A stretch of 64,000 nucleotides of DNA, taken from a virus. Location: IMG/VR virus record IMGVR_UViG_3300049027_000085, positions 1-64,000 of that record; one strand, written 5' to 3'. Each line of letters opens with the position of its first letter. Within the stretch, counting starts at the first letter, position 1. Under the pieces are notes generated by a model. It was not told where the DNA came from, did not search any database, and saw only the letters and a program-made list of their open reading frames with translations. Shown here piece by piece: positions 13,301-44,124 of the stretch. The position numbers and the translations under genes are program-made.

Positions 13301-16300
13301 ATCCGGTCAGAAATTCAAGAGGCGGCGCGGGACCACTTCTCAACGAAGACCAACCGGATGAAGAGCTCGGACAAACTGCGGGCTGAGTATGAAGATCTCA
13401 AGATGTCGTACAGCTCTGAGGACTTCAAGAACTTCGAGGACCTGGAACGCGACCTGATCAAGAAGTGGAAGAGTTTCACGGACATCGTGCCGCTGTGGGC
13501 CAAGCAGTTCATATACCACCAGAAGAACTTCGGGCCCCGAATGGCTCGTGAGGAGATACAGCGTGCCGCCAAGCGCGGGTTGAAGACGGTCCGCATGGCG
13601 GCCCCTGAGACCGGGGCGTTGATCGAGGGGCACGTTGACACGACACAAATTTCTGACGCCCGAAAGGTGGTGGACCCGAACCTCGGTTACTCAGTTTACA
13701 CCCAATACCGGAGTGACCGTCTCGACGCTGGGGACATCATCTATCTCGACGGTAGCCAGGAACCCTATATGGTCGTCGAGGTCGGTGAGGGTTGGCTGAA
13801 GGCAGCTAAGGGCACATCCGTCATAATGGGCACCCCTGATAAGGTGATCATGAACCTGACAGCGGAGGCGCCGGACCGGACACGTGACATCGAAGCGCAA
13901 GCGAGGGAACTGCTTGAAGAGTTCGGCTACCGCATTTTCCCAGCTTCAAGCCGGAGCGGCTCCATTCTGGCCGCTTACGAGGGCCCGGGCTTCGACATCG
14001 TGGAGCTCAAAATGCCCGACACCGGCGATCCAAAGAAGATCGATCTAAAGAAACTCCGTGCCGGGATACGCACCCACCACCAGCCCATATTCGACCGCTA
14101 CGTCGAAATGGCCGACTGGACCTTTAAGGAACGGCCTGACGCACGGTGGGTGACCGACCACAACGGGCACCGGTGGATCGAATTTGACATCACTGAAGCG
14201 GACGTCAACAAGCCGATTGCACTTTTCCGCGCAGATTTGTTAGAAGACCACATTGACCAGCGCGACAAGTGGGCGCAGCGCGAGGAGATGGACGACGAGT
14301 TCTTCAGGGCCATCGACTCCCAGATAGACGACTCAGGGGCCGTGCGCTTGAACTTCGCGGCGGCTGAGCTGATCCGCAGGATCGAGACGCAGACCCAGAT
14401 CGACCAGGGCGACGACCCGTTCGTCCCACTCTTCGCGGCGGCCATGGGGCGCCAACAGGACGTCGACAACTGGATAGACAGGCTAGCGACCATAGATTCG
14501 GAGTTAACACGTCTCGGGTACCCCGATGATTCAAGGAAAGGCATCCAGGAGCTACGTAAGCAGCTAGAGAGCCTGCCGAACCGGGTCGGGGTGATCTACA
14601 CCCGCAATTTCGCGCTGCCCCATGAGAAGATCCACGAGGCGCGGTACCTGAACGCCGCGATGGAGGCCTCGGTCCGGAGCTACTACGACGACTTCGAGGC
14701 CACGTTCAATGCGGCCAAAACGGACCGCGGCAACATGACCGTCAACGAGAAGGCGTTCCGGAACTACTTCAGCAAGACGTACTATAATAACCGCAAGTTC
14801 TCGTCCCTGGACCGTGAAGAGCGGGGTATACTTCATGAAGAGGTGTTCACCGCGATCACTGATGGGGACTATGCGAAACTCAAGCTCACCGACTCCGAGG
14901 CGGCGCGGTTCATCGAGGCGGACCTCGACGCGTACGTCAAGAAGAACGGTGATCAGATCCTAGACGACATAGAGGTATGGGCAAATGAAAAAGTCAAAAA
15001 GTTCGCCGCCGTCGAGAAACTTCTCGCTGGCAAGCAGGCGACGAAAGAACTTAAGAAAGCTGGCATCAGCGTACAAGAAACAGAAAGCCGGAACGGAGAA
15101 CGCGATCGAGGAGGCGCTCAAGACGCTGGAACCCAGGAAGCCGATGGCCGTGGGGTTAAAGATCGCCGCCTACCGAAAACCGTCGGACGAAACACGTCGC
15201 TCGTCGAAGACGACCTGACGTCCGTAGCTAGACAGCTCGAGCAGCTGCCACGTGACGTGGCGGCCAAGGGGGCAGAGGAGTGGCTGGAGTCGCAAGGGTT
15301 CGAGTCCGCCTACAGCCAGGTTTTCGACCTCCCGCCCAGTGGCCAGAACACGGCCAAACGTATGGCGGTGATCGAGCACATCGACGCGCAGGTCGAGCGG
15401 TACACCCAGCAGGGCGACACCGGCCGCGCGAAGGAGTGGTACTCACGCCTCGTCACCTTGACCAACGCGATCAGCCCTGACTACACGGAGTACGGCCGTG
15501 CGATCGGCCAGCTGGCGAGGTGGGCTGACCTTGACCCCCAGGCGGTCGTCGGCCACACACAGCAGAAGATGGCGAAGGCCGGCAAGGCCGACAAGCTGAC
15601 CCTTGAGCAGCAGCAGCAGCTGCGCGACCAGGCCAAGCAGATCGCTGAGCTTGAGAAGAAGGTCCAGGACCTCGAGGCCAAGAAGAACGGCGCCGGCGGT
15701 AAAGGCAAGAGCCACCCGCTCAACCAACAGAAATTACGAGCTACAGCTGCCCTCCAGGCGCTCAAGTCGAAGCTCGGCAGTCTCAAGCGCTACAACCAGA
15801 GCCTTAAGGCGGCGGCCGACAAGATCCGCAAGCTGGGCGCGCAGGGGACCGCCGCGAGCTGGATCAACCGTAATGAGAACAACGTCACCAACTGGCAGGA
15901 GTTGTTCAACGACCCGAACGGGCTGGACAAGCTGCGAGAACAGGTAGATCACAGCCACACCATCGCCTCGAACAACGCGAAAATCAAGGAGCTGTCCATC
16001 ACCGACATGAACGGCTACCTCGATCAGCAGGTCGCCCTGGCCGACGACGGCGCCAACCTCGCCAACCCGCAGATCCAGCGTGCCGTTCAACTCGCCAGGA
16101 CGAACAGGAAGGCGGCCGTCGACTCACTGGTCAACTGGGTGATGAACGAGCGTCAGCAGTCACTTCAAGAGTGGGACAAGTACCTCACCAACGACAACGA
16201 CGTCTATGCTGAGGACCCGTTCTTCAGGGACTTCGTTTGGCAGGGGCTGACCGAATCGCTGCGCAATGACCGGCCGGACATCCCACCGTCACTCGACCGC

Positions 16301-19300
16301 GCTGTGCTCGCAGGTGTGTACGAGACCTTCAGCCAGGGGAACAACTTCACCGGCTTCATGAAGCTGTACAAGAAGGAGTCGTCCAGAGCTTTGGCCGAGG
16401 CCAAAGACATGACGAAGGTCACCACGAGCGGCGGGCAGTGGGTCAAGATACCGAGGACAAGCCAAGACAGCCCCGACTTCGAGCAGAACGCGAACCGCCT
16501 GCGCAGTCTGTCAGCGCAGAGTTGGTGCACGAGCCGCGGGATGGAGCGGCCCTACATTCAGAAGGGCGACTTCTGGATCTACCAGGAGGGCGGGGTCACC
16601 GAGCTCGCGATCCGGTTCGACGGCGACCAGGTTGTCGAGATACAGGGCCGCCTCAACAACGGACGCATCCCGGTCGAGTACATCCAACAGGTGACCGAGC
16701 TGCAGAACAGCGGCGAGGTCCAGTTCAGCAAAGGGGCACAGACACAGATAGACAGGGCGAAACGCCAGGTCGTCGAGACACAGAAGATCGAGAAGTGGCT
16801 CGAAGACGAAAACATCAAGGTCGGCAGCGTCAGCACCGAGGTCAGCAATGCTGAGACCCTGGAACACGCCAAAATGGCGTACGTCGGCGAGAACATGCCT
16901 CGCAGGCTTGCAAGCATTATCTATGACCGCTACGAGGGTATAGCTGACCTAGAGTGGCACGTGGACCGTGAACGTGACATGTACATCGCGGGCGGGCGCC
17001 TCACCGAGGATGACATCGAGAACGTCACCGATAAGTATCAATACGTGATCGCCCAGCTTGCATGGGAGGAGATGACCGCACACCATGATGATGAGCAAGA
17101 TTATGACGATGAGCGTAACCCAGGCGACCTAGTGGACCCCAACTGGAGGTTAAACAACTTCCTTGAGGACACCGAGTTCAAGCACTTCGATGACCTCTAT
17201 GACACGTTCTTCCCTGGTAAGTTCAAGGCGCCAGCGCCCAAGCCGATCACCAAGGAACAGCTCAGTGAGGTGAAGAACGCAGAAAGCCTAGGACAGGCGC
17301 AGGCGATCTACGAGTACCACACGAACCTCAACCAGTTCATAGCCGACAACAAGGAGTACATCTCCAAGCGCCAGCTGGACGGTGTGACGAACCCGTCCAT
17401 CTCTGAAGCGTACCGCAAGCGCAACTTCGACCAGCTCACCAGGACCGTGGGGATCCGCAAAACGTTCGAGTCAGCGCCGCTCTGGCAGCAGGAGGAGATG
17501 CTCGGCTTGAGGAAGCTGAAGAACGGCAACTACGTCTTCCCGCACCGCGTGTCGATCGGGGCCGACGGGACCATAGGGAACCCGTACATGTATCGTCCGA
17601 CCCTTGGTCTTCAAGGTAACATACCGACGTACGGGCTGCCGATCGGCAAGTTCCTCGACAAGATCGAGGTGTTCGAGAGCTCCGTCCAGCTGCGCAAGGG
17701 CGTTAAGGTGCCGAAGCTCCGGCTCGCTGAGAAGAACCTCGTGATCGAGGCCCGCGGGGTGGAGGTGCCGAAGCTGCAGGTCGTGGGCGGCAACCTCTAC
17801 ATCCAACGTACGGCGACGAAGGACATCAAGTTCCCGAACCTGGTCGCGGTCGGCAGGTCGATAGGCGTGCTCAACATCTACAATTACGCCACAGAGGGAC
17901 TCAAGGCGCCAGACGTGCTGAAGTTTCCGAAGCTGATCAGGGAGGGAAGCCGCGGCCTCAACCAACCGGGAATGGTGATGTCGTGGAAGCCTGAAAAAGA
18001 AACGTCATCGTCTGGCCATACGTTCACCCAGATGGTGGAACACAATCACGACCTCAAGGGCAACAAGCTGGATTCAAGCAACACGACACAGCTGGGCCAC
18101 AAAAAGTTCGACGCGCGAACCTTCGCCTCCAACCTGAGGTTGAGGAAAGGCCAGAAGGGCTACTCGCTGAAGAGCGCGTTCGATGACACGAAACACGGTC
18201 CAGGACCGAGAGGCCCCAAACGCGGCTTTTTGGTGGATGAAGATCAGGTGCGCAAGGTTTACAGGGAGTACCTCGACGGGAAGAGCCTCAGGCAGGCAGC
18301 CAAAGAGAACGGCGTGTCACATGAGCTGCTGCGCCGGCGCTTTAAGGAGCTGGGCCTCGACCTCAAAACGAAGGGTGAGGGCGCTGAGGACATGTGGCGC
18401 GACGGCCGCGGCAAGGGGTCGCTGAAGAACGCGTTCGGTGACATCGAGGGCGACGACGACTTCCTCAGCTATGAGGGCGACGTCGAGTCTAGGGTGACTG
18501 AGTACATTGACCGCTTTGAGCCGAAGAACTCGTTGGAACGGGAGATCTTCAGGCGCTACATCAAAGATGTCGTCAACCCGGACGAAGAGATCCTTGAGAT
18601 CCTCAACCCTCCAGACCGCATCATGCTGGCTGAGTTCCTCGGTGAACGCTACGCGACCGAGTGGGCTGAGGAGTGGCAGGACGTTTACGAGAAATCGCCC
18701 ACCGAGGAACAAGTCAAAGACGTTGAGGACCGGATGTTCAAGCTGGCCAAGGAGGCTGCTGAACGTTACGACGCAGAGGACCCGCTGCCGGCAGCTGCTA
18801 ACCAAGAGATCGACAACGACCCGGCCAGGCCGCTTGAAGACCGCCTCAACGACATGGCGATGAACGCCTACTGGGACAACATCACCAAGTCGGACCCGAT
18901 GGCGGAACAAGAGGACGATGACAACGACTCCTGGCCGGACCTCCTGATGCGGGTCGACGAGGACCGGCCGATCAGCGACTTCCCGAAGGACACCAGGGAC
19001 GCGCTGGTCGACGTGGCGAAGTACAAGTACCTCGAGGGCCGGATGGCGGACGGGCTGAGCTTCGACGACTGGCGCAGCGCCGTGATGAACGAGCTGGTCG
19101 CCGCGAAGGTGGACCCCGCGCAGCTCGAGGGCTACTACAAGAGCCTGTACCGCGAGGTGGTCAGCCAGGTCAAGCAAGAGCGTTTCCGCGCCGAGCTCGA
19201 CCGGATGAAGGAGAAGTACAACCTCCAGGACGACACGGCCGCACGGCTCGCGCTGATCGAGGAGAAGGACGAACGCGTCAAGAAGCTGAAGCTCCACCGC

Positions 19301-21658
19301 GACGCGGAGAAGGCGGTCCGCCCTGAGAGAGACAAGCGGACCGCACTTCAGGTCGCGATCGACAACCACATCGAGGCGGGCGGCACCAAGCTGACCCGCG
19401 ACGACGTGCTTGGGGTCAAGGACAGGAACCGGTTCTTCAGCCAGCGTGCCGGGAAGATGAAGCCGTCGGAGATCAACGACCTCTACCTCGAGGCGGTGAA
19501 CCTCTACATCGACGCGACATCCGACATCCGCGAGGCGCAACAGCAGCGCCGCGCCGAGGCGACCCTCAAGGCGCCGGGCTACCAGCCCGCCCTTGACAAG
19601 GAAGAGGTCAAGCAGATCAACAAGGAGCTCGACGAGGCGCGGCGGCTGAAGACCAAGGAGAGCCACAACCTCAGGAAGCTGATCGAGCACATCGTCGGCA
19701 GGCCGTTGACCAAGCGGGAACGGCTGGGCGACTGGTACATGCGGCTCAACCGGAATGGCGAGGCGCTGCTCACCGCGACCGTCAAGACCGCGGCCCACAA
19801 CGTGATCGCCCAGCGCGGCACGAAGGTGATCAACGCCCTCGAGACCGCGGTCGAACTGGCGTTCGCCAAGGCCGAGCAGACGCTGGGCGTGAGCATATTC
19901 AGTGAGACCGGACTCGACATACCCGCGTCGACGCGGCTCCGCGACGTGCTCAAAGAAGAGGTCAAGAGCAGCACCTTCCCGTCGGTCCGCAAGGCGCTCC
20001 AAGAGTACCGTGACGGCGAGGCCGACCTCATCTCCGCGCTGCAGACGGTTGCTGCCTACAAACAGCGCGTGGTCGAAGGGGTCCTGGGCCACAACCCGGA
20101 CCTCTACGACCAGATGATAGGGGCCTTCTCTTACGGCCAGGAACAGGCCGAGGCGCGTCCGATCGACGAAAGTTATGGCATGGGTGCCAAGACGGTCGAG
20201 CGGTTCGTGCGGGGCGTCGAGCGGTACACCCATTACGGGACGGTCCTCAATCGGATCCAGGAGAAGCACTACCGGTTCGCCACCTTCCTGGCGACCTTGA
20301 CCGCCGACCTGAAGGGCATGGGCGTCGACCTCGACGCGGTGGTCGAGGAAGGGCAGACGGCGAACATACCACGCAACCTGTTGGAGCGTGCGACGAAACG
20401 CGCCCTCGAGGACACGTTCGGCGAGGACCTGCCCAGCGACTCGAGCCTGGCGCAGTTCATCAAGGCCGGCCACAACAGCGCCGCGTGGATACCGTTCATG
20501 CTGAACCCGATGCTGTTCCGCAGGTTCTTCTACAACAGCGGCAAGTTCATGGTCGAACACACGCCCCTCGTGTTGGCGAAAACGGTCACCGCCAAGGGGT
20601 TCAGCCGGCGCGACGCTGCCAAGTTCGTGATGGGGACCAGCATGTTCCTGTTCGCCCTCCAGGTGCTGCGTGAGTTCGGGTCTGACGACGACGACCCGAC
20701 GGTGCTCAACATCCACGGCCACAACCTGAGGATCAGCGCGTTCAACCCGATCTCGACCTTCATCGTGATGGCGAACTTCTACCGCAGGTACGAGAAGGGC
20801 AAGACGCCCATGAAGACCGGCGACGAGCTGTTCCAGCTGCTGGGGATCGACACCCGGTACCCGAACCTCGCGCTCGACTGGTGGAAGAGCATCATCAACC
20901 TCGGCTCGGGCGACGAGGCGAAGTACGTCAAGCTCAGCGAGCAGAGCACCATCCTCGGTGCACGAGGGCTGTCCGCGTTCCTACGGCCCCTGGCGACCGT
21001 CAAGGACATCATCAGCCAGTTCGATGAAATGGAGTCGGCCGTCCGCGACCCGATGGGGCAGACGTTCCGCACCGAGCTTGGCAAGACGGTCCCGCTGGTC
21101 TCGACCCGCGAGGCGCCGCTGCTGGGCCCGCCGCCGCCTGTCCGTGAGGACGTGATGACAGGCAAGCCGATGACGAAGAAGAGCCCGCTGCTCGACCAGA
21201 TGGGGTTCACGTTCATCAACGACAACCAGGTCGGGGCGAAGTTCAGCCCGGCTGAGGAGTACCTCGACCAGGCTGCAGCACAGGAGCGGTCACTGAGGCC
21301 CAAGAAGTTCAAGGACCCCGAGGAGCGCCGGAGGTCAGGGTACACAGCTCAGCTGTTCACGGCCATAGACAAGGGCAACGACGTCAGCAAGGTCGCCGTG
21401 GACTACAAGAAGCGCGGGCTGATCACCAAGGACCAGCTGGATGACCTGCTTGACGCGAACCGGATCAAGAGCACGGTCGAGCGCAAGGCGAAGGTCGCCA
21501 GCATCGGGAAGATCGTGGACGCCTGGTACCTGGCGAACGAGGATGAAAGGAAGATCCTGCGGAAGGTGCTGACGCAGAAGGTCGCCAACCAGAAGAAACG
21601 TGGCAGCCTGAAGCCGGAAGAAGAAAGGGTGGCGAGAGAAATCCTCACCACCCCTTGA
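7364..21658 (+). CDS. Giant 4764-residue polyvalent ejection protein (M15, GGDEF, HExxH, HTH)
   Basis: A single uninterrupted 14.3-kb frame. Residues about 43-139 form an M15/VanY-like peptidase (GYRSRQQQANLY; TSDHEFWRAVD with His90 and Asp97; HRH at 130-132), likely cutting peptidoglycan during entry. Residues 540-720 are hydrophobic and Gly-rich. Residues 965-1110 are a GGDEF domain: DDLTGLANR at 968-976, Asp998, GGDEF at 1042-1046. SH3-like segments lie near 840-885, 1260-1325 and 2115-2160. HEKIHE at 2420-2425 is an HExxH motif. WCT at 3054-3056 precedes a repeat region with alternating V/L strands (about 3395-3535). A helix-turn-helix lies near 3619-3670. The C-terminus has a hydrophobic helix near 4415-4435. 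Large polyvalent proteins of this kind are thought to be injected with DNA; the injected role here is inferred. Confidence 0.9.
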   Translation: MAQDQDKPFTKLLNQVAPPLTQPKKKRPRRKPVAQQPANNPDQEKYNLFVNALKKRGIPVNSGYRSRQQQANLYNRLPKGEAARPGTSDHEFWRAVDTPPDADENLIREAAKEAGIELGPHRIHQGTGRHRHQSFNKPKQQEGEFTKLLKQLPQEPQDGEFTQLLKGLGGPTDRSEVQDTGNDRPWVPKMYTIHDVPGAPQGQQTTQKQVPVGTSEPQEPAAGVAAVDPTAAQDPGSRAFSKKVTFRDKPEGVSNTEWAIQQLIPEIVNRTGHSQGDVERQLRKGIAHYEGTPLDEISPESYYEFAGSEDFVNALDQQRDAREAALEAALESPEEWSPADWDRFSKETGTDPAEIQAALSGQSERFSSFAEAGNQRRQALAAKTQELMQQGGLTQFQAGVRARVEMGILDELKAQELLQKDQKAQQEFEAYFRENFIDTRAVTAGLGQVSSMGGGMNPVQDSQTFAKLQDPVEYEKARSEYVAMQMQNMLQQYGSYDAAMQRHKNVMRDYDPNLRPLARPLEMAKSLVKALPEAVSSIFRTGAFLQDFITPGMVYRAVTDTPSTPTKDKNLVKLAEWVEKHTEENLGQNKDLQVEFMNSLALNLAFNVGPNAVGQLLTQVGAGALGGGAKLATLIGMGQGLGEQQKEAIKGGASENQIKLHSLIGAVAAVPDIIPLAKWMHEPTLLNKFFGKFFAGAVEQVGEEAALQATKGLIARTLSRAKTFAAGSAMEGLQELSEKKINDAVATMTYDPKRRVLVFTDEDLLETLGGAVGGLGGAAVEITMEGEQPTTANPTVDQVLAQYNQTAPAQTTAKTPDPMAIAPPPPPAAVEPVEQPVGVQVGSTVEAPFRGKTVTGTVTNIENGKLTVQTENNTFVVNEKRATPVTQQTAPPAAAPPVEPDAVPKSVVPVQAGIKVAPYDGPQAAPEETATPSVKSVERRGVRERVADFIYPEGKNRRETAERAAQTDDLTGLANRGALDRALPAAEKDPNTSVIAFDANNFGQINKKVSQQAGDQALKDIASAIQQAAKEEGVGERVFRRGGDEFVVLAPKAKAERVRKLAEQIYGDKDYSGVKVSISGTVGNTFNEADATLQDAKAVKKGLKSAPKGSLKRTFKGPVEQQSYYANREFLKKELDKVGLEADPAVIEATTEALFKKWPDPKTFRKAITDFIRDETNDHVTDRVELLDLQGKLKRKKLSPDDQTKVHYIKKKLQEYTSGKMLRLREEFDLDAIAEDILFRMARADFGAAKGDPNTGYVMSDWTGEEVGIGDIVKYRVDKRQGTVERIVDEYGETEAVVRLTHDSQGREILPQNQHNVSWPERDIRLVTRNPEVTGQPDLARTFDIYLNKYKGLFDKQDVKVEEFTKLFERGIIAPARQLAAPLTYRPPYTVSSLLQPQFDDFRAKNKLVSKETITSMAFKNAKPLEKEFINTVLASPIFKDRKKFPFNEFELELSRELLPLNVIYSAHHANYGVSRLGAYDSYGKEETHIYDVPAVNATLDAMDHGYTAHWTDQYDEMVDRAQYKVDQVVSPSGEPVYLVVPDIVYDIDYPSTGYALEQEYPRWVRKKGKGDKGDFKLNEESLYEVSVFNTRNREDAELVAKDLTQRVKRTKGLFGHTRVWYKDDTAYIAEIQGEGLQRFTYPYHGGTKSTWTTKKWHWGASQWDVSRSVSSAVEMVFNHFQKRHAVKGTVDEKMDEFIDFVMEGKMTMDALSDISDATTAIKKGGELMDRIANDILSEIENRVDTDPEYRDDKGNTKLTPDDRMKVMSKELAKMSDQLQIGKLRRQAIETKLEELKEYAEEVDQKEKVAYGLINSEEYTQAIDELVHHIRLAADLRRDDWKLAVDRFKQDMEDNLWEEWKTEADARTWIHDRHQTGDNQFYLIRSYKDPQTKEISYVPMSEVNYYEYSTNDLHGLWDDASSKVETLAQEIIEETFEDQVKFGSDFFYMLKNPMVAHFRGGRWVEHAMNDDWSFIDNAQIRSEIQEAARDHFSTKTNRMKSSDKLRAEYEDLKMSYSSEDFKNFEDLERDLIKKWKSFTDIVPLWAKQFIYHQKNFGPRMAREEIQRAAKRGLKTVRMAAPETGALIEGHVDTTQISDARKVVDPNLGYSVYTQYRSDRLDAGDIIYLDGSQEPYMVVEVGEGWLKAAKGTSVIMGTPDKVIMNLTAEAPDRTRDIEAQARELLEEFGYRIFPASSRSGSILAAYEGPGFDIVELKMPDTGDPKKIDLKKLRAGIRTHHQPIFDRYVEMADWTFKERPDARWVTDHNGHRWIEFDITEADVNKPIALFRADLLEDHIDQRDKWAQREEMDDEFFRAIDSQIDDSGAVRLNFAAAELIRRIETQTQIDQGDDPFVPLFAAAMGRQQDVDNWIDRLATIDSELTRLGYPDDSRKGIQELRKQLESLPNRVGVIYTRNFALPHEKIHEARYLNAAMEASVRSYYDDFEATFNAAKTDRGNMTVNEKAFRNYFSKTYYNNRKFSSLDREERGILHEEVFTAITDGDYAKLKLTDSEAARFIEADLDAYVKKNGDQILDDIEVWANEKVKKFAAVEKLLAGKQATKELKKAGISVQETESRNGERDRGGAQDAGTQEADGRGVKDRRLPKTVGRNTSLVEDDLTSVARQLEQLPRDVAAKGAEEWLESQGFESAYSQVFDLPPSGQNTAKRMAVIEHIDAQVERYTQQGDTGRAKEWYSRLVTLTNAISPDYTEYGRAIGQLARWADLDPQAVVGHTQQKMAKAGKADKLTLEQQQQLRDQAKQIAELEKKVQDLEAKKNGAGGKGKSHPLNQQKLRATAALQALKSKLGSLKRYNQSLKAAADKIRKLGAQGTAASWINRNENNVTNWQELFNDPNGLDKLREQVDHSHTIASNNAKIKELSITDMNGYLDQQVALADDGANLANPQIQRAVQLARTNRKAAVDSLVNWVMNERQQSLQEWDKYLTNDNDVYAEDPFFRDFVWQGLTESLRNDRPDIPPSLDRAVLAGVYETFSQGNNFTGFMKLYKKESSRALAEAKDMTKVTTSGGQWVKIPRTSQDSPDFEQNANRLRSLSAQSWCTSRGMERPYIQKGDFWIYQEGGVTELAIRFDGDQVVEIQGRLNNGRIPVEYIQQVTELQNSGEVQFSKGAQTQIDRAKRQVVETQKIEKWLEDENIKVGSVSTEVSNAETLEHAKMAYVGENMPRRLASIIYDRYEGIADLEWHVDRERDMYIAGGRLTEDDIENVTDKYQYVIAQLAWEEMTAHHDDEQDYDDERNPGDLVDPNWRLNNFLEDTEFKHFDDLYDTFFPGKFKAPAPKPITKEQLSEVKNAESLGQAQAIYEYHTNLNQFIADNKEYISKRQLDGVTNPSISEAYRKRNFDQLTRTVGIRKTFESAPLWQQEEMLGLRKLKNGNYVFPHRVSIGADGTIGNPYMYRPTLGLQGNIPTYGLPIGKFLDKIEVFESSVQLRKGVKVPKLRLAEKNLVIEARGVEVPKLQVVGGNLYIQRTATKDIKFPNLVAVGRSIGVLNIYNYATEGLKAPDVLKFPKLIREGSRGLNQPGMVMSWKPEKETSSSGHTFTQMVEHNHDLKGNKLDSSNTTQLGHKKFDARTFASNLRLRKGQKGYSLKSAFDDTKHGPGPRGPKRGFLVDEDQVRKVYREYLDGKSLRQAAKENGVSHELLRRRFKELGLDLKTKGEGAEDMWRDGRGKGSLKNAFGDIEGDDDFLSYEGDVESRVTEYIDRFEPKNSLEREIFRRYIKDVVNPDEEILEILNPPDRIMLAEFLGERYATEWAEEWQDVYEKSPTEEQVKDVEDRMFKLAKEAAERYDAEDPLPAAANQEIDNDPARPLEDRLNDMAMNAYWDNITKSDPMAEQEDDDNDSWPDLLMRVDEDRPISDFPKDTRDALVDVAKYKYLEGRMADGLSFDDWRSAVMNELVAAKVDPAQLEGYYKSLYREVVSQVKQERFRAELDRMKEKYNLQDDTAARLALIEEKDERVKKLKLHRDAEKAVRPERDKRTALQVAIDNHIEAGGTKLTRDDVLGVKDRNRFFSQRAGKMKPSEINDLYLEAVNLYIDATSDIREAQQQRRAEATLKAPGYQPALDKEEVKQINKELDEARRLKTKESHNLRKLIEHIVGRPLTKRERLGDWYMRLNRNGEALLTATVKTAAHNVIAQRGTKVINALETAVELAFAKAEQTLGVSIFSETGLDIPASTRLRDVLKEEVKSSTFPSVRKALQEYRDGEADLISALQTVAAYKQRVVEGVLGHNPDLYDQMIGAFSYGQEQAEARPIDESYGMGAKTVERFVRGVERYTHYGTVLNRIQEKHYRFATFLATLTADLKGMGVDLDAVVEEGQTANIPRNLLERATKRALEDTFGEDLPSDSSLAQFIKAGHNSAAWIPFMLNPMLFRRFFYNSGKFMVEHTPLVLAKTVTAKGFSRRDAAKFVMGTSMFLFALQVLREFGSDDDDPTVLNIHGHNLRISAFNPISTFIVMANFYRRYEKGKTPMKTGDELFQLLGIDTRYPNLALDWWKSIINLGSGDEAKYVKLSEQSTILGARGLSAFLRPLATVKDIISQFDEMESAVRDPMGQTFRTELGKTVPLVSTREAPLLGPPPPVREDVMTGKPMTKKSPLLDQMGFTFINDNQVGAKFSPAEEYLDQAAAQERSLRPKKFKDPEERRRSGYTAQLFTAIDKGNDVSKVAVDYKKRGLITKDQLDDLLDANRIKSTVERKAKVASIGKIVDAWYLANEDERKILRKVLTQKVANQKKRGSLKPEEERVAREILTTP

Positions 21659-35065: not shown

Positions 35066-36625
35066 ATGAAAACCATGACTTTGACCGACAAGTTCACCGC
35101 CGCCCTTCTCGCAGGGACCCCGCTGATCGGGATCACCTGCTACGACCCGGAAGCCACCATGGCAACCCTACACAAGGAGATAAAGAACCAACCCGTCATC
35201 CAGTGGGACTGCATACAGGGCTGGAGACCGCGCACCGACACGGGCAAGAACGCGATCAAAGAAGCGTGCAAGTCCGCTGACAAGGACGTCGTCGCCGGCA
35301 AGACCGCCAACCCGGTCGAGCAGTTAGAGGTCGCCGCCAACCTCCCTGAGGAAACGGTGCTGTTCATGATCAACAGCCACAACTACTTCGACAACCCGGC
35401 GTTCCTCCAAGCGGCGTGGAACCTGCGTGACGAGTTCAAGACGAACGGCCGGACGCTGGTGTTCCTCGCGCCGCACCTCAACATACCGGGCGACATCAAG
35501 AACGACGTGATCCTGTTCGACGAGGAGCTCCCTGACGCCGCCCAGTTGCGTGGGATCGTGAACTCCGTGATCGACCCGATGGTCAAGGCCAAGGTGTTCT
35601 CCCACGGCGTGACGGTCGACGACGCCGTGAGGGACCGCGCGGTCGACGCGCTCCGCGGCATTCCGGCGTTCGCCGCTGAACAGTGCGTCGCCATGGCGTC
35701 CACCGTCCAGGAGGCCGGCCTGCAGGTCGACCAGGTGTGGGAGTACAAGCGCAAGATGATCAACGACACACCGGGCCTCAAGGTGTACGGCGGGACTGAG
35801 AAGTTCGACGACCTCGGCGGCTGCGACGCGGTCAAAACTTATCTGCGGCGCGTGATCGCCGGCAAAGACGCCCCGCGCGTGATCGTGTTCATCGACGAGG
35901 GCGAGAAGATGTTCGCCGGCGCCACCAACGACGTCGGAGACAACACGGGCGTGAGCCAAGACGCGCTGGGAACGACGCTCTCCTTCATGGAGGACAACGA
36001 GTGCGACGGTGCGGTCTTCGTGGGCCCTCCCGGAGCGGCCAAGTCCGCGATCGCCAAGGCGATGGGCAACGAGGCCGGCGTGCCGACGATCATGCTCGAC
36101 TTCGGCGGCCTCCGCGGAAGCCTCGTGGGTGAAAGTGAGCGGAAGCTGCGCGAGGCGTACAAGATCGTCGACGCGGTAGGCGGCGGCAAGGCGTTCTTCG
36201 TGATGACCTGCAACAAGGACGCGGCATTGCCGCCGGAACTTAAACGCCGGTTCACGAGTGGCACGTTCTTCTTCGACCTCCCGACCCGCGAGGAGCGCGA
36301 GACCATTTGGAAGATCTACCTCGACAAGTACGGCTTCGATGACGTCGCGGTCAATGCGATCGAGTTCGACAAGGACTGGACCGGCGCGGAGATCCGCAAC
36401 TGCTGCCGCATGGCGTACCGTCAAGGCATCAGCCTCGAAGAAGCGGCGCAGTACATCATCCCGGTCGCGGAGAGCGCTGCGGACCAGATCGAACGCTTGC
36501 GCAACTCGGCAGCCGGTAAGTACCTCTCGGCCTCGCGTGCAGGTAAGTACTCGCCGCACGTAGAAAAGCCGTCCCTGTCATCCTATGCTGAGTCTAAACA
36601 GCGTCAGGTGAAGACCAGCCGTTAA
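35066..36625 (+). CDS. Ycf46-like AAA+ ATPase with Walker B before Walker A
   Basis: A 519-residue protein. The N-terminal 240 residues follow the Ycf46 pattern (TPLIGITCYDPEAT, VIQWDCIQGW, LVFLAPHLNIPGDIKNDVI). The AAA+ core begins FDDLGGCDAVKTYLRR, but then shows Walker B VIVFIDEGEKMFAG (Asp277-Glu278) with SQDALGTTLSFMED, and only afterwards Walker A GPPGAAKS (320-327), LVGESERKLREAY, sensor-1 region MTCNKDAALPPELKRRF and the C-terminal lid. In ordinary Ycf46 proteins Walker B lies between GESE and the sensor. The core therefore looks internally rearranged. The next AAA+, DUF1257 and DUF2997 genes are likely partners. ATG 35066 follows TTTTGAAAGGAGAGCACACC. Confidence 0.8.
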   Translation: MKTMTLTDKFTAALLAGTPLIGITCYDPEATMATLHKEIKNQPVIQWDCIQGWRPRTDTGKNAIKEACKSADKDVVAGKTANPVEQLEVAANLPEETVLFMINSHNYFDNPAFLQAAWNLRDEFKTNGRTLVFLAPHLNIPGDIKNDVILFDEELPDAAQLRGIVNSVIDPMVKAKVFSHGVTVDDAVRDRAVDALRGIPAFAAEQCVAMASTVQEAGLQVDQVWEYKRKMINDTPGLKVYGGTEKFDDLGGCDAVKTYLRRVIAGKDAPRVIVFIDEGEKMFAGATNDVGDNTGVSQDALGTTLSFMEDNECDGAVFVGPPGAAKSAIAKAMGNEAGVPTIMLDFGGLRGSLVGESERKLREAYKIVDAVGGGKAFFVMTCNKDAALPPELKRRFTSGTFFFDLPTREERETIWKIYLDKYGFDDVAVNAIEFDKDWTGAEIRNCCRMAYRQGISLEEAAQYIIPVAESAADQIERLRNSAAGKYLSASRAGKYSPHVEKPSLSSYAESKQRQVKTSR

Positions 36626-36674: not shown

Positions 36675-38426
36675 ATGAGATTAGGAATACAGGCGAAATA
36701 CGTAAGGGAAGTCATAGAAAAGATCGGCAAGGACGAGGCGTCATTCAGCATCGACCGGTGGAAGGACGGCGAGATCAGAGAGTACCTGGACTTCAGCAAG
36801 ATGCGGACCGACGAGATCAAGGAGTTCGACAAGTTGCTGAAGCGGCTGGCGGAACAACCGTCCACCAAACAGAAGTACGGTGCCGCATACAGGAAGTTCA
36901 CCGAGTTCTTCACGCTGCTCACCGGTGACGTGGGCGGCAAAGCGATCAAGAAGCTGGACATGATACCGGCCGCGATCAAGTCTTACTTCAAGGACTCCGA
37001 CAGAAAGTGGGTCTTCAAGGAGACGTCAGACGGCCTGCCCAACCCGTACTTCCTGACGAGGTGCTGGTACAAAGAGGCCCACTACCTGCGGAGCGGCGCT
37101 TACGTGCCCGCGACGACGCACCTCGTGATCACGGCGTGGCGGCAGGGCAAGCAAACCACCTCGTCCTTCTCGTGGCTGGCGAAGAACGTCGGCAAAGCGG
37201 GCAAGACGGTGCAGCAGCTGCTGTCGCAGCACGGGCTTCACATAGAGACCGACGCCGCGGTAGAGGCGTACTACGAGGAGTTCCACCGGTGCCTCGAGCT
37301 CCAAGAGCAGGTTGGGCTTCAGATGTCGTCACAGGGAACGGCGTTCCTCAAGGCTGAGAACAGGTGGTACTCACCAGCGGCTGTGGCAATGATACGTGAG
37401 GGCATCGCCACGAAGGTCGTGATCGAGGATCAGGATATTCGCAGCGATGACGACGAGTCGGAAACATCCATCATGGACACCTTCTGGGACGTCGTCAAGG
37501 TCAGCAAGTTGCGCTCACGTAGACCGGTCTCCGACGACGACGATGAGGTAGAGGTCGAGGAGGTCGACGAGACAGACGACGACGAGAAGAAGCGGATCGA
37601 ACTTCCGATCCACCCGTACCTCTACGTCTTCGACCTCGATAAGCACCAGTACGTCGACATTCACACGAAGAACCTGCTCGACTACAAGTGGAACAAGACG
37701 TTGGGCGATAAGCTGATCATCAAGGACGAGGACAAAAAGTTGATCGACCTCTTGATGAATCGCACCGGGCAGAGCGTCAGCGACATCGTGTCCGGCAAGA
37801 TGAACGGTGTCATAGTACTCGCTACCGGAAGCCCTGGGATCGGCAAGACACTGACCGCTGAGGTCTTCTCAGAGATGATCGAGAAGCCCCTCTACAATGT
37901 GCAGTGTTCACAGCTCGGCCTGAACGTCGATCAGATCGAGAAGAACCTCAGGAATGTGCTTGACCGCGCTTCACGGTGGGGGGCGATCTTGCTGGTCGAC
38001 GAGGCGGACGTTTACATCAGGAAGCGCGGCGAGGACATTCACCAGAACGCGATCGTCGGGGTGTTCCTGCGGCTGATCGAGTACTACCGCGGGGTGCTGT
38101 TCATGACGAGCAACCGGGGTGAAGAGATCGACGACGCGATCATCAGCCGTGCGACGGCATGGATCAAGTACGAAAAGCCGTCTCCGGACCTCCTGGCGCG
38201 AATCTGGGATGTTCTGGGCAAACAGTACGGCGCGAACTTCAGCGACACGGACATCAAGCGTCTGTTGAAGATCCTGCCCGGCATCTCTGGCCGCACGGTC
38301 CGCAACCTGTTGAAACTTGCCAGGATGCTCGCTGGAGACTCACCGGTCACGGTCGACCTGATCGACCAGGTCAAGGGGTACCAGCAGCTCGACGGGGACC
38401 CGCTGACTGAAGCGGCAAAAAAGTGA
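36675..38426 (+). CDS. AAA+ ATPase with acidic linker
   Basis: A 583-residue protein. The N-terminal 250 residues are unrecognised and helical. A strongly acidic linker (DDDDEVEVEEVDETDDDE, about 290-308) separates them from a C-terminal AAA+ domain in normal order: Walker A ATGSPGIGKT (about 383-392), Walker B ILLVDEADVY, sensor-1 MTSNRGEEID and an arginine-rich lid. It resembles FtsH/Cdc48-type remodelling ATPases. It lies between the Ycf46-like and DUF1257 genes, so it may be the second motor of the same assembly. Confidence 0.8.
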   Translation: MRLGIQAKYVREVIEKIGKDEASFSIDRWKDGEIREYLDFSKMRTDEIKEFDKLLKRLAEQPSTKQKYGAAYRKFTEFFTLLTGDVGGKAIKKLDMIPAAIKSYFKDSDRKWVFKETSDGLPNPYFLTRCWYKEAHYLRSGAYVPATTHLVITAWRQGKQTTSSFSWLAKNVGKAGKTVQQLLSQHGLHIETDAAVEAYYEEFHRCLELQEQVGLQMSSQGTAFLKAENRWYSPAAVAMIREGIATKVVIEDQDIRSDDDESETSIMDTFWDVVKVSKLRSRRPVSDDDDEVEVEEVDETDDDEKKRIELPIHPYLYVFDLDKHQYVDIHTKNLLDYKWNKTLGDKLIIKDEDKKLIDLLMNRTGQSVSDIVSGKMNGVIVLATGSPGIGKTLTAEVFSEMIEKPLYNVQCSQLGLNVDQIEKNLRNVLDRASRWGAILLVDEADVYIRKRGEDIHQNAIVGVFLRLIEYYRGVLFMTSNRGEEIDDAIISRATAWIKYEKPSPDLLARIWDVLGKQYGANFSDTDIKRLLKILPGISGRTVRNLLKLARMLAGDSPVTVDLIDQVKGYQQLDGDPLTEAAKK

Positions 38427-38502: not shown

Positions 38503-38892
38503 ATGTCACACATCACTCAGATCAAACTCGAGATCAAGGACCTCGAGGCCCTCAAGACGGCGGCTGCCATGCTTGAGCTCGAATACAAAGAGGGGGTCAC
38601 CAAGCACAAGTACTACGCAGGCAAGTACGGCAAGTGCGACCACGTGATCAGCGTGCCCGGCAACAAGGACGCCTACGAGATCGGCGTCGTGGCCAACCCG
38701 AACGGGACGTACAAGCTCAACTGGGACAGCTTCGCCGGCGGCTACGGGCTGGTTGAGAAGGTCGGCGAGAGCGCGTACAAGCTGAAGCAGGAGTACGGCG
38801 CCGCGGTCGCTGAGAAGCAGCTGCGCCGACAGGGGTACCGTGTCAAGCGACAGGTCGTGGACGGGAAGCTCGTGCTTCGCGGTGTCAACTAA
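38503..38892 (+). CDS. DUF1257 (Ycf35-like) protein
   Basis: A 129-residue protein started at ATG 38503 after TACGGAGGTTACGAACC. The opening MSHITQIKLEIKDLEALKTA is the characteristic DUF1257/Ycf35 N-terminus, followed by YEIGVVANPNGTYKLNWD and a basic C-terminal segment. The molecular role of the family is unknown. In bacteria and plastids it occurs with DUF2997 and Ycf46-type ATPases, and all three are adjacent here. Confidence 0.82.
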   Translation: MSHITQIKLEIKDLEALKTAAAMLELEYKEGVTKHKYYAGKYGKCDHVISVPGNKDAYEIGVVANPNGTYKLNWDSFAGGYGLVEKVGESAYKLKQEYGAAVAEKQLRRQGYRVKRQVVDGKLVLRGVN

Positions 38893-38902
38893 GGAGGCCG
38901 TC

Positions 38903-39100
38903 ATGAAACAGCAAACAGAAATCGTCGTCGAGATCGACCGCGAGGGCAACCCGAAGGTCGAGGTGAAGGGTCACGTGGGCCCAGGTTGCAAGGAGCTCAC
39001 CAAGCAGATCGAGCTAGCGCTCGGCGCAGCGGAGAGCGAGAACAAGAAGCCCGAGTTCTACCGGCAGGAGGTGAAGCATGTTGCTACCAATCGTCGTTAA
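38903..39100 (+). CDS. DUF2997 protein
   Basis: A 65-residue protein matching DUF2997: EIVVEIDREGNPKVEVKGHV, then GPGCKELTKQIELALG and a C-terminal KKPEFYRQE. It is the usual small partner of DUF1257 and follows it by 10 bases with ribosome site AAGGAGG. Function is unknown. The stop overlaps the next start region. Confidence 0.8.
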   Translation: MKQQTEIVVEIDREGNPKVEVKGHVGPGCKELTKQIELALGAAESENKKPEFYRQEVKHVATNRR

Positions 39101-39407
39101 CGAGGACGGATCGATCGAGCAGATCGTCACCGATGACATGGTCGCCTTCGAGGGGGAGGCGACCACCACTAGGGCCAGCAACGTCGTGCCCGAGCCGTTG
39201 TTCAAGCAGCTCGTGTTCATCAAGCTGCGGGAGTGGTTCGGTGATCAAGGCAGGGTCGCGGACTGGACACGCCGTTGGAAGGGGCCGCACATCGCGTGCA
39301 TGGTCGACGGTCCGGTCTTAGGCCCGTACCCCAGCCGGCAGGCGGCGTTGGACGCAGAGATGCGGTGGTTACTCAAGAACAGGTTCGGAGGTGAAAGTCA
39401 TGAATGA
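39078..39407 (+). CDS. Hypothetical protein
   Basis: A 109-residue protein with ribosome site GGAGGTGAAGC before ATG. Residues 60-105 contain Trp-rich segments (LREWFGDQGRVADWTRRWKG) and PYPSRQAALDAEMRWL, reminiscent of small phage proteins with a surface helix. It overlaps the DUF2997 gene by 23 bases. No family is recognised. Confidence 0.55.
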   Translation: MLLPIVVNEDGSIEQIVTDDMVAFEGEATTTRASNVVPEPLFKQLVFIKLREWFGDQGRVADWTRRWKGPHIACMVDGPVLGPYPSRQAALDAEMRWLLKNRFGGESHE

Positions 39408-39903
39408 TGAAATGAAGGACGACGCTCTCGACTTCGAGATGCAAGAGGATATAAACGAAATTAAAGAGGCGGCCGAGCAGTTTGGCAAGCTGCTGAGTGA
39501 CAAGGCGGGCAAGCAGGCCCAGAAGCAGATCGAGGCGCTCTCGGACGAGCAGCTCAAGAACAGGATCATCGAGCAGGGCGCCAACGTGTTCACGCGTGCC
39601 TGTAACAAGACGATCGACGTGATAGGGGTCGCCAAGATCCTCGGTCTCAACGACGACCACGTCAAGGACCTCGTGAGGCAGCACTGTGAGTTCCAGGTCG
39701 ACCTGCTGGTCCGGCTCGGCGTCGAGCTCCCGCCGGACCTCGACGTCGCCGTCAAGGAGCTGTACGACATAGAGATCGGCGGCGTGGACGAGTTCATAAA
39801 GGCCCACAGCGACGGGGCACACCCTGGGTGCATACTGGACGAGTACCAGAAACGGAACAGCTGGGACGAGCTGATCGAGGAGGTGGGCCATGGCGTTAAC
39901 TAG
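39400..39903 (+). CDS. Acidic helical protein, unknown
   Basis: A 167-residue, acidic, mostly helical protein. ATG 39400 is chosen over GTG 39391 because the ribosome site TCGGAGGTGAAAG gives correct spacing. Central part VFTRACNKTIDVIGVAKILG then LNDDHVKDLVRQHCEF looks like a globular helical domain. It overlaps both neighbours by a few bases, suggesting coupled expression with the DUF2997 and BRCT genes. Confidence 0.55.
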   Translation: MNDEMKDDALDFEMQEDINEIKEAAEQFGKLLSDKAGKQAQKQIEALSDEQLKNRIIEQGANVFTRACNKTIDVIGVAKILGLNDDHVKDLVRQHCEFQVDLLVRLGVELPPDLDVAVKELYDIEIGGVDEFIKAHSDGAHPGCILDEYQKRNSWDELIEEVGHGVN

Positions 39904-40276
39904 AGAACAAGAAGCGGACTACACGGTGCGCGGCAAGAAGTTCTGTTTCACCGGCGCCCTCACGATCTTCACCAGGGACCAGGCCAAGGCGCTGCTGATC
40001 GAGCGTGGCGGCATCGTCCACCTGTCGGTCAAGACCGACACCGACTACCTGATCTACGGCCACGACACCGGCCAGACGAAGATGAACGCCGCCAGGGCCC
40101 GCGGGACCAACCTCAGATCCGAACAGTGGCTGCTCGCGGCGATCACGGCGAATGCCCCCGGGCTGGTACCGCGCAAGAACATTCCGGACGTGACGACGGT
40201 CTTCCAGCAACCCCAGGCTGAGGTGAAGGAGAGCATCGAGATGAAGCCGAAGGTACGCAGAGTCCGCGTCCGCTAA
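39890..40276 (+). CDS. Stand-alone BRCT-domain protein with RRVRV tail
   Basis: A 128-residue protein. Residues 12-88 are a BRCT domain of the DNA-ligase type: KKFCFTGALTIFTRDQAKAL, ERGGIVHLSVKTDTDYLIYG, and the helix RSEQWLLAAI with its conserved Trp. No ligase or polymerase domain is attached. A linker leads to the C-terminal tail KPKVRRVRVR. It may bind DNA ends or phosphopeptides, or tether a replication complex. It lies between the DUF2997 group and the DUF3150 gene. Confidence 0.82.
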   Translation: MALTREQEADYTVRGKKFCFTGALTIFTRDQAKALLIERGGIVHLSVKTDTDYLIYGHDTGQTKMNAARARGTNLRSEQWLLAAITANAPGLVPRKNIPDVTTVFQQPQAEVKESIEMKPKVRRVRVR

Positions 40277-40472: not shown

Positions 40473-41678
40473 ATGAAAAACGAAACATTCACCGCAGAGC
40501 AGTTCACCAAGTTCGTCAAGGACATGTCCGCAGCAGTCAAGCGTGTCTACAACACGCCGGGGATCGTCGATGAGATGACGGTCGAGCAGCGGAACGACTT
40601 CAAGGCCCGCGTCGAGAAGTACACCCCGAGCAACCCTGAGGGTCAGGGACGCAAGTCAACGGTTCTTTACACCCTCGAGACCACGGTCGCGGTCGAAGCC
40701 GCCTCCACCAACGGCAGCGTTGCCACGCCGGTCAACGACATGTCGGCTGAGGTCGCCAAGCGGATCGCGGAAGAGAGCATCGTGATCGAGATTCACATCC
40801 GTCAGCCCGGGTTCACCAAGAAGATCGACGCGAACGACTTCCTTGACCGCAACGGCAACAAAGGCAAGGTCGAGTCCGACATCCTCCACGTGCACCAAGA
40901 CCTGATCGACAAGCGCCACGTGAAGAACCTGATGGACCACCGTCAGAGCCTGCTCGACTACATCCGATCGTGGCAGGTGCCCGGCGGCATGTTGACGCCC
41001 GGCGGCGGTCAGTTCCTCGTGCCGCTCGCGGCTCAGGAAAAGATCTACGCCAAGATCGAGGAGTTCGGCGCCGAGCGTCAGGGCCTGCTCGACAAGTTCG
41101 CAGAGAGCTGGGACACGATCGTCGAGGAAGCCAAGAAGAAGCGTGGCGTCTTCTTCGACGACGGGGACTACCCGAGCTTCAAGTCGATCCGCGACCGGTT
41201 CACGCACGACTTCCGGTTCATCAGCAACAAGGTGCCCGACGAGCTGAAGAAGCTCGGCCTTGAGATCTATCAGAAGGAGTTCGACAAGCAGATGCTGAAC
41301 TGCGCGACGGCCGCGTCCGAGATTCAGGCGGCCCTACGTGAGGGTTTCCTCGGGTTGATCGAGCACTTCACCGACCGGTTGGGGGTGGATGAGGAGACCG
41401 GCAAGCCGAAGCGTTTCAACGAGAAGCGGATCACGGACATCCGTGAGTTCCTCGAGACGTTCCAGGCGCGGAACCTGACGAACGACACGCAGCTCGCCGC
41501 CCTCTGTGAGAAGGCGCAGACGCTGATCGAAGGTGTGGACGCTGCCACGATCCGCAGCAACGCGGACGCCCGCGCGAGCCTCAAGCAAGCGTTCGACGAC
41601 CTGACCACGGCGACGAACGAGCTGATCGGAACCAAGACCCGCCGCGTGCGGGTCGCGGCCGCCAGCAACGGACAGTAG
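40473..41678 (+). CDS. DUF3150-like protein with RRVRV tail
   Basis: A 401-residue protein. Residues 120-270 fit the DUF3150 pattern: DLIDKRHVKNLMDHRQSLLD, GGQFLVPLAAQEKIYAKIEE, a helical stretch, then DDGDYPSFKSIRDRF and FRFISNKVP. DUF3150 proteins are encoded beside AAA+ ATPases in phages and mobile elements; their function is unknown. The C-terminal third is helical and ends in TKTRRVRVAAASNGQ, the shared basic tail. Expression is from P6, and the AAA+ cassette lies upstream. Confidence 0.65.
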   Translation: MKNETFTAEQFTKFVKDMSAAVKRVYNTPGIVDEMTVEQRNDFKARVEKYTPSNPEGQGRKSTVLYTLETTVAVEAASTNGSVATPVNDMSAEVAKRIAEESIVIEIHIRQPGFTKKIDANDFLDRNGNKGKVESDILHVHQDLIDKRHVKNLMDHRQSLLDYIRSWQVPGGMLTPGGGQFLVPLAAQEKIYAKIEEFGAERQGLLDKFAESWDTIVEEAKKKRGVFFDDGDYPSFKSIRDRFTHDFRFISNKVPDELKKLGLEIYQKEFDKQMLNCATAASEIQAALREGFLGLIEHFTDRLGVDEETGKPKRFNEKRITDIREFLETFQARNLTNDTQLAALCEKAQTLIEGVDAATIRSNADARASLKQAFDDLTTATNELIGTKTRRVRVAAASNGQ

Positions 41679-42944: not shown

Positions 42945-43417
42945 ACAGACCGATAGTGTTCCTACAGAACTCGTACAGCCCGGTGTACGCCGGGAGGGAG
43001 TGGCCGAGGGAGAGCTGGCTGAGGGCGCTGGCGGCCTGCCGATCGGGGAAGATGCTGACCCACCTGGGCCAGCCGTGGGGCGTGATGCACAACACGACCC
43101 CTCAGGTCGGCAGGACGGCGAGCAGCAAACTGCCGCCGGACTACGATCACATGTTGAGGGTTATCCAGGAATGTTCTCCGGCTTCTATCGTGGCCTGCGG
43201 CCAACAGGCGATCGACGCCGTGAGGCTGATCTGGGACGGGCCGAGGGTCGAGCTGCCGCACCCAGCATGTCGCTGGGTAAAGTCCACCTTGTATCAGGAG
43301 GGGAAACGTCTCCTGGACCTGCAGGTGAGGGGAGGGATGAACTTCCGCGCGAGGGTGTGGGAGAAGAAGGGTGAGCCGTTCAAGGTGGAGATCCTGCGGC
43401 AGGAGGTAAAGGTATGA
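42941..43417 (+). CDS. Uracil-DNA-glycosylase-superfamily-like protein
   Basis: A 158-residue protein. RPIVFLQNSYSPVYAGREW, MHNTTP, then SIVACGQQAIDAV and RVELPHPACRW have the order of UDG-fold motifs: N-terminal strand-loop, central strand ending in Gly-x-x-A, and a C-terminal His-Pro loop. The catalytic residues of classic UDGs are not clearly kept, so it may be a diverged glycosylase or a binding-only member. A base-excision or modified-base link would fit the nucleotide genes elsewhere in the window. Confidence 0.4.
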   Translation: MNRPIVFLQNSYSPVYAGREWPRESWLRALAACRSGKMLTHLGQPWGVMHNTTPQVGRTASSKLPPDYDHMLRVIQECSPASIVACGQQAIDAVRLIWDGPRVELPHPACRWVKSTLYQEGKRLLDLQVRGGMNFRARVWEKKGEPFKVEILRQEVKV

Positions 43418-44124
43418 ACGACAAATCACGCACCAACGAGGCGGCGGCGAAATGCGTATGTGGACCGGAAGGGGCGTGCAAGCTGCACAAGGCCGTCATT
43501 TGCTCGAAATGCGGGCAGGTGGATGATTCGGGGCTGACCCCGAGGACGAACAGTGCAGCGGGCTGCACTCACGATTGGCAAGCGTTCACCAACGAGGCGG
43601 CGGCGCCCGATGACGCGGCGGTGGGGGAGGCTGTGGAGGTGCTGAAGCCAATCGTGGAGGAATGGTCGGTAAGGGATGCACCGATAGCGATTTACGGCAA
43701 CGAGATAAAGGCTCTAGCTACCGCTATCGCCGCCCTCACGCCCCGCGACGACCCAGCCGCCGCGACGGACGGGACGCTTCTGCCGTGCCCGTTCTGTGGC
43801 GGGGAAGCATCGGCCGCTACCAGCGGCGGCGGCGTGTATTGGGTGTTTTGTTCGCGATGCAAAGCGCAGGTGGATTGGCACCACACATCGCAGGAGGTGG
43901 CAGATACGTGGAACCGCCGTGCCGACCTGCCCCCCGCCGTGGTGCGCCGCATCGAGGAGGCGTTCGCGGGGAGGGTGAAGGCGGCATTGGAACTGGAGAT
44001 ATATTCCGACGAGGCGATCAAGGATGCTAGACACGACGGCAACCATCACCCGCACAGTTGGAATCAGGGTGCGAAGAAGGTGTTACGGGCGATGGATGCT
44101 GAACTAGGGAGGAAGGGGGAATGA
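43414..44124 (+). CDS. Lar-like zinc-ribbon protein (restriction alleviation-like)
   Basis: A 236-residue protein. Residues about 122-170 match the Lar family: LLPCPFCGGEAS, a strand with WVFCSRCKAQVDW, then SQEVADTWNRR. Lar of Rac prophage modulates type I restriction; many homologues are uncharacterised. An upstream Cys-rich part (CVCGPEGACKLH, CSKCGQ) may bind another zinc. Base composition and codon choice (GCGGCGGCG runs, AAT, CGA) differ from neighbours, hinting at separate ancestry. Confidence 0.65.
   Translation: MNDKSRTNEAAAKCVCGPEGACKLHKAVICSKCGQVDDSGLTPRTNSAAGCTHDWQAFTNEAAAPDDAAVGEAVEVLKPIVEEWSVRDAPIAIYGNEIKALATAIAALTPRDDPAAATDGTLLPCPFCGGEASAATSGGGVYWVFCSRCKAQVDWHHTSQEVADTWNRRADLPPAVVRRIEEAFAGRVKAALELEIYSDEAIKDARHDGNHHPHSWNQGAKKVLRAMDAELGRKGE

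Follow-up and report, generated by a model that had tools for sequence, protein, structure and literature searches.

A phage-encoded Ycf46-like AAA+ protein in which the Walker B block precedes Walker A

Gene and motif layout

The window analysed here is a 64,000-nucleotide stretch of viral DNA, positions 1 to 64,000 of the IMG/VR record IMGVR_UViG_3300049027_000085. The whole record spans 70,164 bases and carries terminase, DNA polymerase A and tail genes, which indicates a tailed phage. On the plus strand, the window contains an open frame for a 519-residue protein with the following features (coordinates are those of the window; fractions give the rearranged proteins in which a residue is kept).

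35066..36625, plus strand: rearranged Ycf46-like AAA+ ATPase gene, 519 aa (open frame, full-length relatives)
35066..35785, plus strand: N-terminal domain, residues 1–240, AAA-like fold without Walker motifs (alignment; whole-chain Foldseek)
35804..35821, plus strand: FDDLGG, residues 247–252, start of the catalytic AAA domain (motif reading, alignment)
35876..36001, plus strand: moved block, approximately residues 271–312 (alignment, block-order profile test, DSSP of the model)
35894..35899, plus strand: Walker B acidic pair D277–E278 (invariant, 60/60)
36023..36046, plus strand: Walker A GPPGAAKS, residues 320–327 (motif, Pfam; K326 60/60)
36125..36139, plus strand: VGESE motif, residues 354–358, at the start of α2 (motif reading, alignment)
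36191..36217, plus strand: β4 with sensor 1 AFFVMTCNK, residues 376–384 (alignment, DSSP; N383 60/60)
36245..36253, plus strand: RRF, residues 394–396, candidate arginine finger (R395 60/60)

The AAA+ core is among the most conserved and most studied of protein architectures. To our knowledge, the order Walker A, Walker B, sensor 1 is treated as fixed, and profile tools depend on it. The window protein has a Walker A, a Walker B of the hhhhDE type and a sensor 1, but this order is broken. A preliminary description of this DNA, made from the sequence alone, had claimed that the Walker B block lies ahead of Walker A. All of the motifs that it quoted are indeed found in one open frame and in the order claimed: FDDLGG is followed by VIVFIDEGEK (residues 272–281), LSFMED (305–310), GPPGAAKS, VGESERKLREAY (354–365) and MTCNKDAALPPELKRRF (380–396). 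The moved block consists of the Walker B strand β3 (272–276), the DE pair (277–278), the pore-loop-2 region and helix α3 (296–310). Downstream, β4 with sensor 1 comes straight after α2, in the slot that the Walker B block occupies in canonical proteins. Residue R395 is presumably the arginine finger, a role that we assign from knowledge of the AAA+ family. The absence of Walker motifs from the N-terminal domain is common to the canonical relatives in the alignment. Long antisense open frames over the gene (for example, 35324–36559 on the minus strand) were judged to be GC-rich by-products and not genes.

Relatives and the order of their blocks

Profile tools return only fragments of the window protein. 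The Pfam AAA profile (PF00004) scores 45.7 bits against a cut-off of 21.2, with a match to residues 317–367 only, corresponding to profile positions 2–52 of 131, and the Walker B half is missed. PHROG 8638 (function not known) matches in four separate stretches, and solved structures matched by sequence are p97-like and span about residues 314–371. Such piecemeal matches are as expected of a domain that is not colinear with its profile. The designation Ycf46-like is taken from the UniProt names of BFVD matches and from plasmid homologues.

A phage search with the window protein returned 46 records. An alignment of the phage relatives revealed the rearranged order also in gp103 of Tunturiibacter phage Tunturi_3 and the ordinary order in Firecracker, HJ05, JP1, L338C, RcTiptonus and DLP5. 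Used on its own as query, the window protein gave no match in a direct search of viral contigs; an alignment query was required, and scanning viral contigs and genomes in this way supplied many further relatives. The resulting 132 distinct proteins comprise 76 with the rearranged order, 56 with the canonical order and none that is intermediate. Where both motifs could be read, Walker B lies 42–52 residues before Walker A in the rearranged proteins, whereas in canonical Ycf46-like proteins it lies after it, at +56 or, in a few, +57 to +61. The preliminary description had likewise placed the block after VGESE in ordinary family members. Canonical proteins also have a stretch of their own between the GG helix and β1, which the moved block replaces in the rearranged ones.

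The rearranged relatives are 31–49% identical to the window protein. An assembly error or recombination artefact confined to one contig is vanishingly improbable, given that 76 distinct proteins, drawn from independent metagenomes, show the rearranged order and that it also occurs in the sequenced phage Tunturi_3 and in 3 of 198 Nitrospirota genomes sampled. The Tunturi_3 protein (XOB77284.1, ‘ATPase’) is 34% identical to the window protein over 95% and shares neighbours with it; its record gives the annotation ATPase only and does not mention the rearrangement. In a Nitrospira genome (locus L261, G001:C31:6000-25900), the genes around the rearranged ATPase resemble those of a plasmid or integrated element and do not look like virion genes; its neighbours, judged by eye, include ThiF-like and sliding-clamp-like products.

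A profile search with permuted blocks had been proposed as a check. A profile built from 15 canonical Ycf46-like proteins was cut into blocks A (up to β1), B (β1 to α2), W (the Walker B strand and α3) and D (from sensor 1 on). The last three blocks were arranged in each of their six possible orders, and best-domain scores were compared. The window protein scored 316 bits with A–W–B–D versus 105 bits in the normal order. The same order was best for 75 of 75 rearranged proteins (median of 286 versus 90 bits in the normal order), and A–B–W–D was best for all 15 canonical proteins. Whole-protein score sums differ less between orders (for example, 277 versus 240 bits), because fragments add up.

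Catalytic residues

The preliminary description had held that all motifs stay intact despite the rearrangement. This holds across the family: the rearranged order is conserved, and D277, E278, K326, N383 and R395 are invariant in 60 of 60 rearranged proteins. These counts bear on whether the protein might be a degenerate, non-hydrolysing AAA+ scaffold whose displaced acidic motif no longer acts as Walker B, a reading that would suit the abnormal motif order and an N-terminal domain that is degenerate already. We regard it as quite unlikely, because the five residues remain unchanged among proteins that are only 31–49% identical to the window protein, and because probable inteins interrupt the sensor 1 of one rearranged protein (L077:5959-7917) and the VGxS motif of another (L253:3560-6322). 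Inteins usually occupy catalytic motifs of active proteins.

Another probable intein lies in a canonical ATPase gene (L252:1406-4648), just ahead of the Walker B strand, at the junction where the moved block is cut. The L077 intein matches Pfam at 5e-6, which is below the cut-off, and those of L253 and L252 were read from the sequence.

The Walker B role might alternatively fall to another acidic pair, such as D152–E153 in the N-terminal domain, with the pair at 277–278 being incidental. On paper, ILFDEE does resemble a Walker B motif. However, within the longer ILFDEELP, D152 is kept in 43 and E153 in 46 of 60 sequences, compared with 60 of 60 for D277–E278, and in canonical proteins the aligned position falls in the VVLDFPLP strand of the N-terminal domain. 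A search for a substitute elsewhere found none: within 150 residues after Walker A, an hhhhDE motif is absent from 75 of 75 rearranged proteins and present in 52 of 55 canonical ones. We therefore consider a different Walker B very improbable.

One functional position does change between the two groups. At pore loop 1 (residues 347–352, window 36104–36121), a lysine is found in 43 of 56 rearranged proteins, compared with a phenylalanine in 26 of 33 readable canonical proteins, which suggests that the threading mechanism may differ.

Predicted structure and covariation

Structure prediction, the other proposed check, gave confident AlphaFold2 models from the rearranged alignment, with pLDDT of 93.3 and pTM of 0.88 for the whole protein and pLDDT of 93.0 and pTM of 0.89 for the catalytic domain alone. 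Along the chain, DSSP assigns the order β3–α3–β1–α1–β2–α2–β4–α4–β5. Foldseek matches of the whole chain run along the two-domain chains of p97, NVL and Rix7. The catalytic domain matches NVL, p97 D2, proteasomal ATPases, katanin and FtsH with TM-scores of up to 0.63 and high r.m.s.d.; such moderate scores are expected, since Foldseek aligns in sequence order and cannot pair the moved block.

The covariation analysis was confined to the rearranged set (70 sequences, 65 effective). The moved block couples to α2 through both of its elements, with α3 paired through D299–E358, F307–D369 and S306–V371, and the start of β3 paired with the end of α2 through R271–G373, V272–G372 and I273–A370. Further couplings link α3 to β2 (T304–L344) and β3 to β4 (F275–C382). 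Of the 15 top couplings of the moved block, 13 are with β2–α2–β4 (null mean of 7.4; p = 0.01 by shuffling), and the observed coupling strength was reached by 0 of 100 shuffles. The coupled segments lie approximately 40–110 residues from the moved block along the chain; in ordinary AAA+ proteins, β2, α2 and β4 are the chain or sheet neighbours of Walker B. The same calculation on canonical proteins, which at a Meff of 38 are too shallow to serve as a control, shared only F307–D369 among the pairs listed here. The AlphaFold2 models and the covariation are not fully independent, as they have many input sequences in common.

The confident models and the covariation are compatible with the usual AAA+ sheet order of 5–1–4–3–2 in space. 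The preliminary description had proposed a rearranged AAA+ core with a new strand order; the rearranged core is upheld, whereas the sheet appears to keep its normal spatial order, and new strand connectivity is the favoured description. In this arrangement, the β3–α3 unit would fold back into its usual slot between β4 and β2, giving a normal ATP site with three rewired connections: the linker to β3, α3 to β1 and α2 to β4. The usual right-handed crossovers would be retained along such a path, as the steps from β3 to β1 and from β2 to β4 would both run in the same direction as the ordinary β2–3–4 steps.

A domain swap, in which the moved strand supplies Walker B to the ATP site of the next subunit in the ring and not to its own, would also accommodate the couplings, because covariation is blind to the difference between contacts within and between chains; the moved block also sits on a linker, close to the domain's N-terminal end, which could favour such an exchange. 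We nonetheless consider it unlikely, because AlphaFold2 folds the single domain confidently as a monomer (pTM of 0.89) and the short connection from α3 to β1 (residues 311–313) makes a compact one-chain arrangement simpler.

By its motifs, predicted fold and ancestry, the window protein belongs with the AAA+ enzymes, and its block order sets it apart from canonical Ycf46. The order of the blocks is conserved clade-wide, the catalytic residues are invariant and a replacement Walker B is lacking. Our reading is that the protein is very probably an active, Ycf46-like AAA+ ATPase in which the β3–α3 unit has been transposed from between α2 and β4 to a position ahead of β1. The earlier suggestion that it may still hydrolyse ATP gains support from the conservation of block order and residues, the absence of a replacement hhhhDE motif, the models and the covariation.

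Origin of the rearrangement

Trees were made from five alignment partitions, and four of them group the rearranged proteins as a single clade. Support for the clade is 0.955 with block A (N-terminal) alone, 0.849 with W alone, 0.991 with D (C-terminal) alone and 1.0 with all columns; in the tree of the short block B alone (58 columns), two canonical sequences are misplaced. The trees were built from shared columns and are unrooted, and many of their deep splits are weakly supported. Because block A lies outside the transposition, the grouping is not produced by the rearrangement itself. One segment transposition followed by spread would be the simplest account of these trees.

The likeliest origin would be a tandem duplication of B–W (β1 to α3), after which the first B (β1–α2) and the second W (β3–α3) would have been lost, a route on which each step would retain one complete core. 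Proteins representing intermediates on this route were absent from the 132 distinct relatives. Circular permutation was considered and rejected: the GG helix still opens the domain and the helical lid still closes it, with one internal block shifted.

Comparison with known ATPases

The closest likeness is to the Ycf46-like AAA+ proteins of phages, plasmids and cyanobacteria (‘AAA family ATPase’; PHROG 8638). The window protein has the same two-domain layout, with a degenerate AAA-like N-terminal domain and an AAA C-terminal domain (alignments and block-A tree), the same motifs around GG, VGESE and LPPEL, and the same neighbours, namely DUF1257 (Ycf35), DUF2997 and DUF3150. Among proteins of solved structure, p97/Cdc48, NVL and Rix7 resemble it in their tandem AAA domain fold, and the segment from Walker A to α2 matches by sequence; both of their domains are canonical in connectivity, whereas the window protein has one rewired domain, predicted to be active, and one degenerate domain. 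The circularly permuted GTPases YjeQ and YlqF are P-loop NTPases with altered motif order and a retained fold, in which Walker B still follows Walker A. Those are circular permutations, whereas in the window protein an internal segment has moved and the domain ends stay in place. A weak local match from sensor 1 to the lid region links the protein to IetA (PADLOC; NCBIfam ‘IteA’ anti-phage ATPase); membership of this defence family was rejected, as the match is partial, scores 32.5 bits against a family cut-off of 510 and lacks a defence context.

Searches of the open-licence literature on permuted AAA+ proteins, on permuted P-loops or Walker order, and on Ycf46 with its neighbours yielded no account of a permuted AAA+ core or of this Walker order. 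We think it likely that this is a natural, non-circular AAA+ permutation of single origin, fixed in a widespread clade of phages and mobile elements, in which the enzyme remains active, the connectivity has not been described before and the pore loop is changed, with lysine for phenylalanine and possibly a different grip on the substrate. A large clade in which a β–α unit has been relocated with all catalytic residues kept would mean that the chain connectivity of the fold is evolvable. It would offer a natural case of segment, as opposed to circular, permutation and a test of the freedom of the AAA+ fold to rewire.

Gene neighbourhood and possible role

The following genes lie downstream of the ATPase gene.

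36675..38426, plus strand: second AAA protein, canonical order, 583 aa, PHROG 29662 ‘ATP-dependent protease’, adjoining the ATPase gene
38503..38892, plus strand: DUF1257 (Ycf35-like) protein, conserved neighbour (Pfam PF06868, E = 9.6e-6; near the ATPase in 46 loci)
38903..39100, plus strand: DUF2997 protein, conserved neighbour (Pfam PF11211, E = 4.6e-11; 53 loci)
39078..39407, plus strand: conserved neighbour of 109 aa without a Pfam match (33 loci)
40473..41678, plus strand: DUF3150-related protein, the most constant neighbour (homologues in 79 loci)

The assignment of the last gene draws on a homologue (L041:8683-9579) that matches PF11348 at 1.3e-7. Genes for the DUF1257, DUF2997 and DUF3150-related proteins stand beside rearranged and canonical ATPases alike, and the same set is present on a Manganitrophus plasmid whose ATPase is canonical. 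In cyanobacteria, DUF2997 and ycf35 are found clustered with a ferredoxin gene (PMC4284462). The neighbours common to both ATPase types suggest that the rearranged enzyme does the job of its canonical relatives. From family knowledge, we take this job to be that of a ring using ATP to remodel a partner protein. The window protein would then act as a ring, probably a hexamer, and may do this remodelling in concert with the DUF1257, DUF2997 and DUF3150 proteins encoded in its own phage gene module. With canonical and rearranged relatives in the same module, their folding, assembly and mechanism can be compared directly.

The second AAA protein was not detected in the related ATPase loci; it has weak IetA/TRIP13-like matches. 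Within the ATPase module, window positions 39890–40276 encode a small phage protein that is largely a BRCT domain (E = 3e-10). Elsewhere in the window, the product of positions 43414–44124 contains a Lar-type restriction alleviation domain (E = 3.8e-13), and an open frame of 4,764 aa at positions 7364–21658 probably encodes a giant phage protein.
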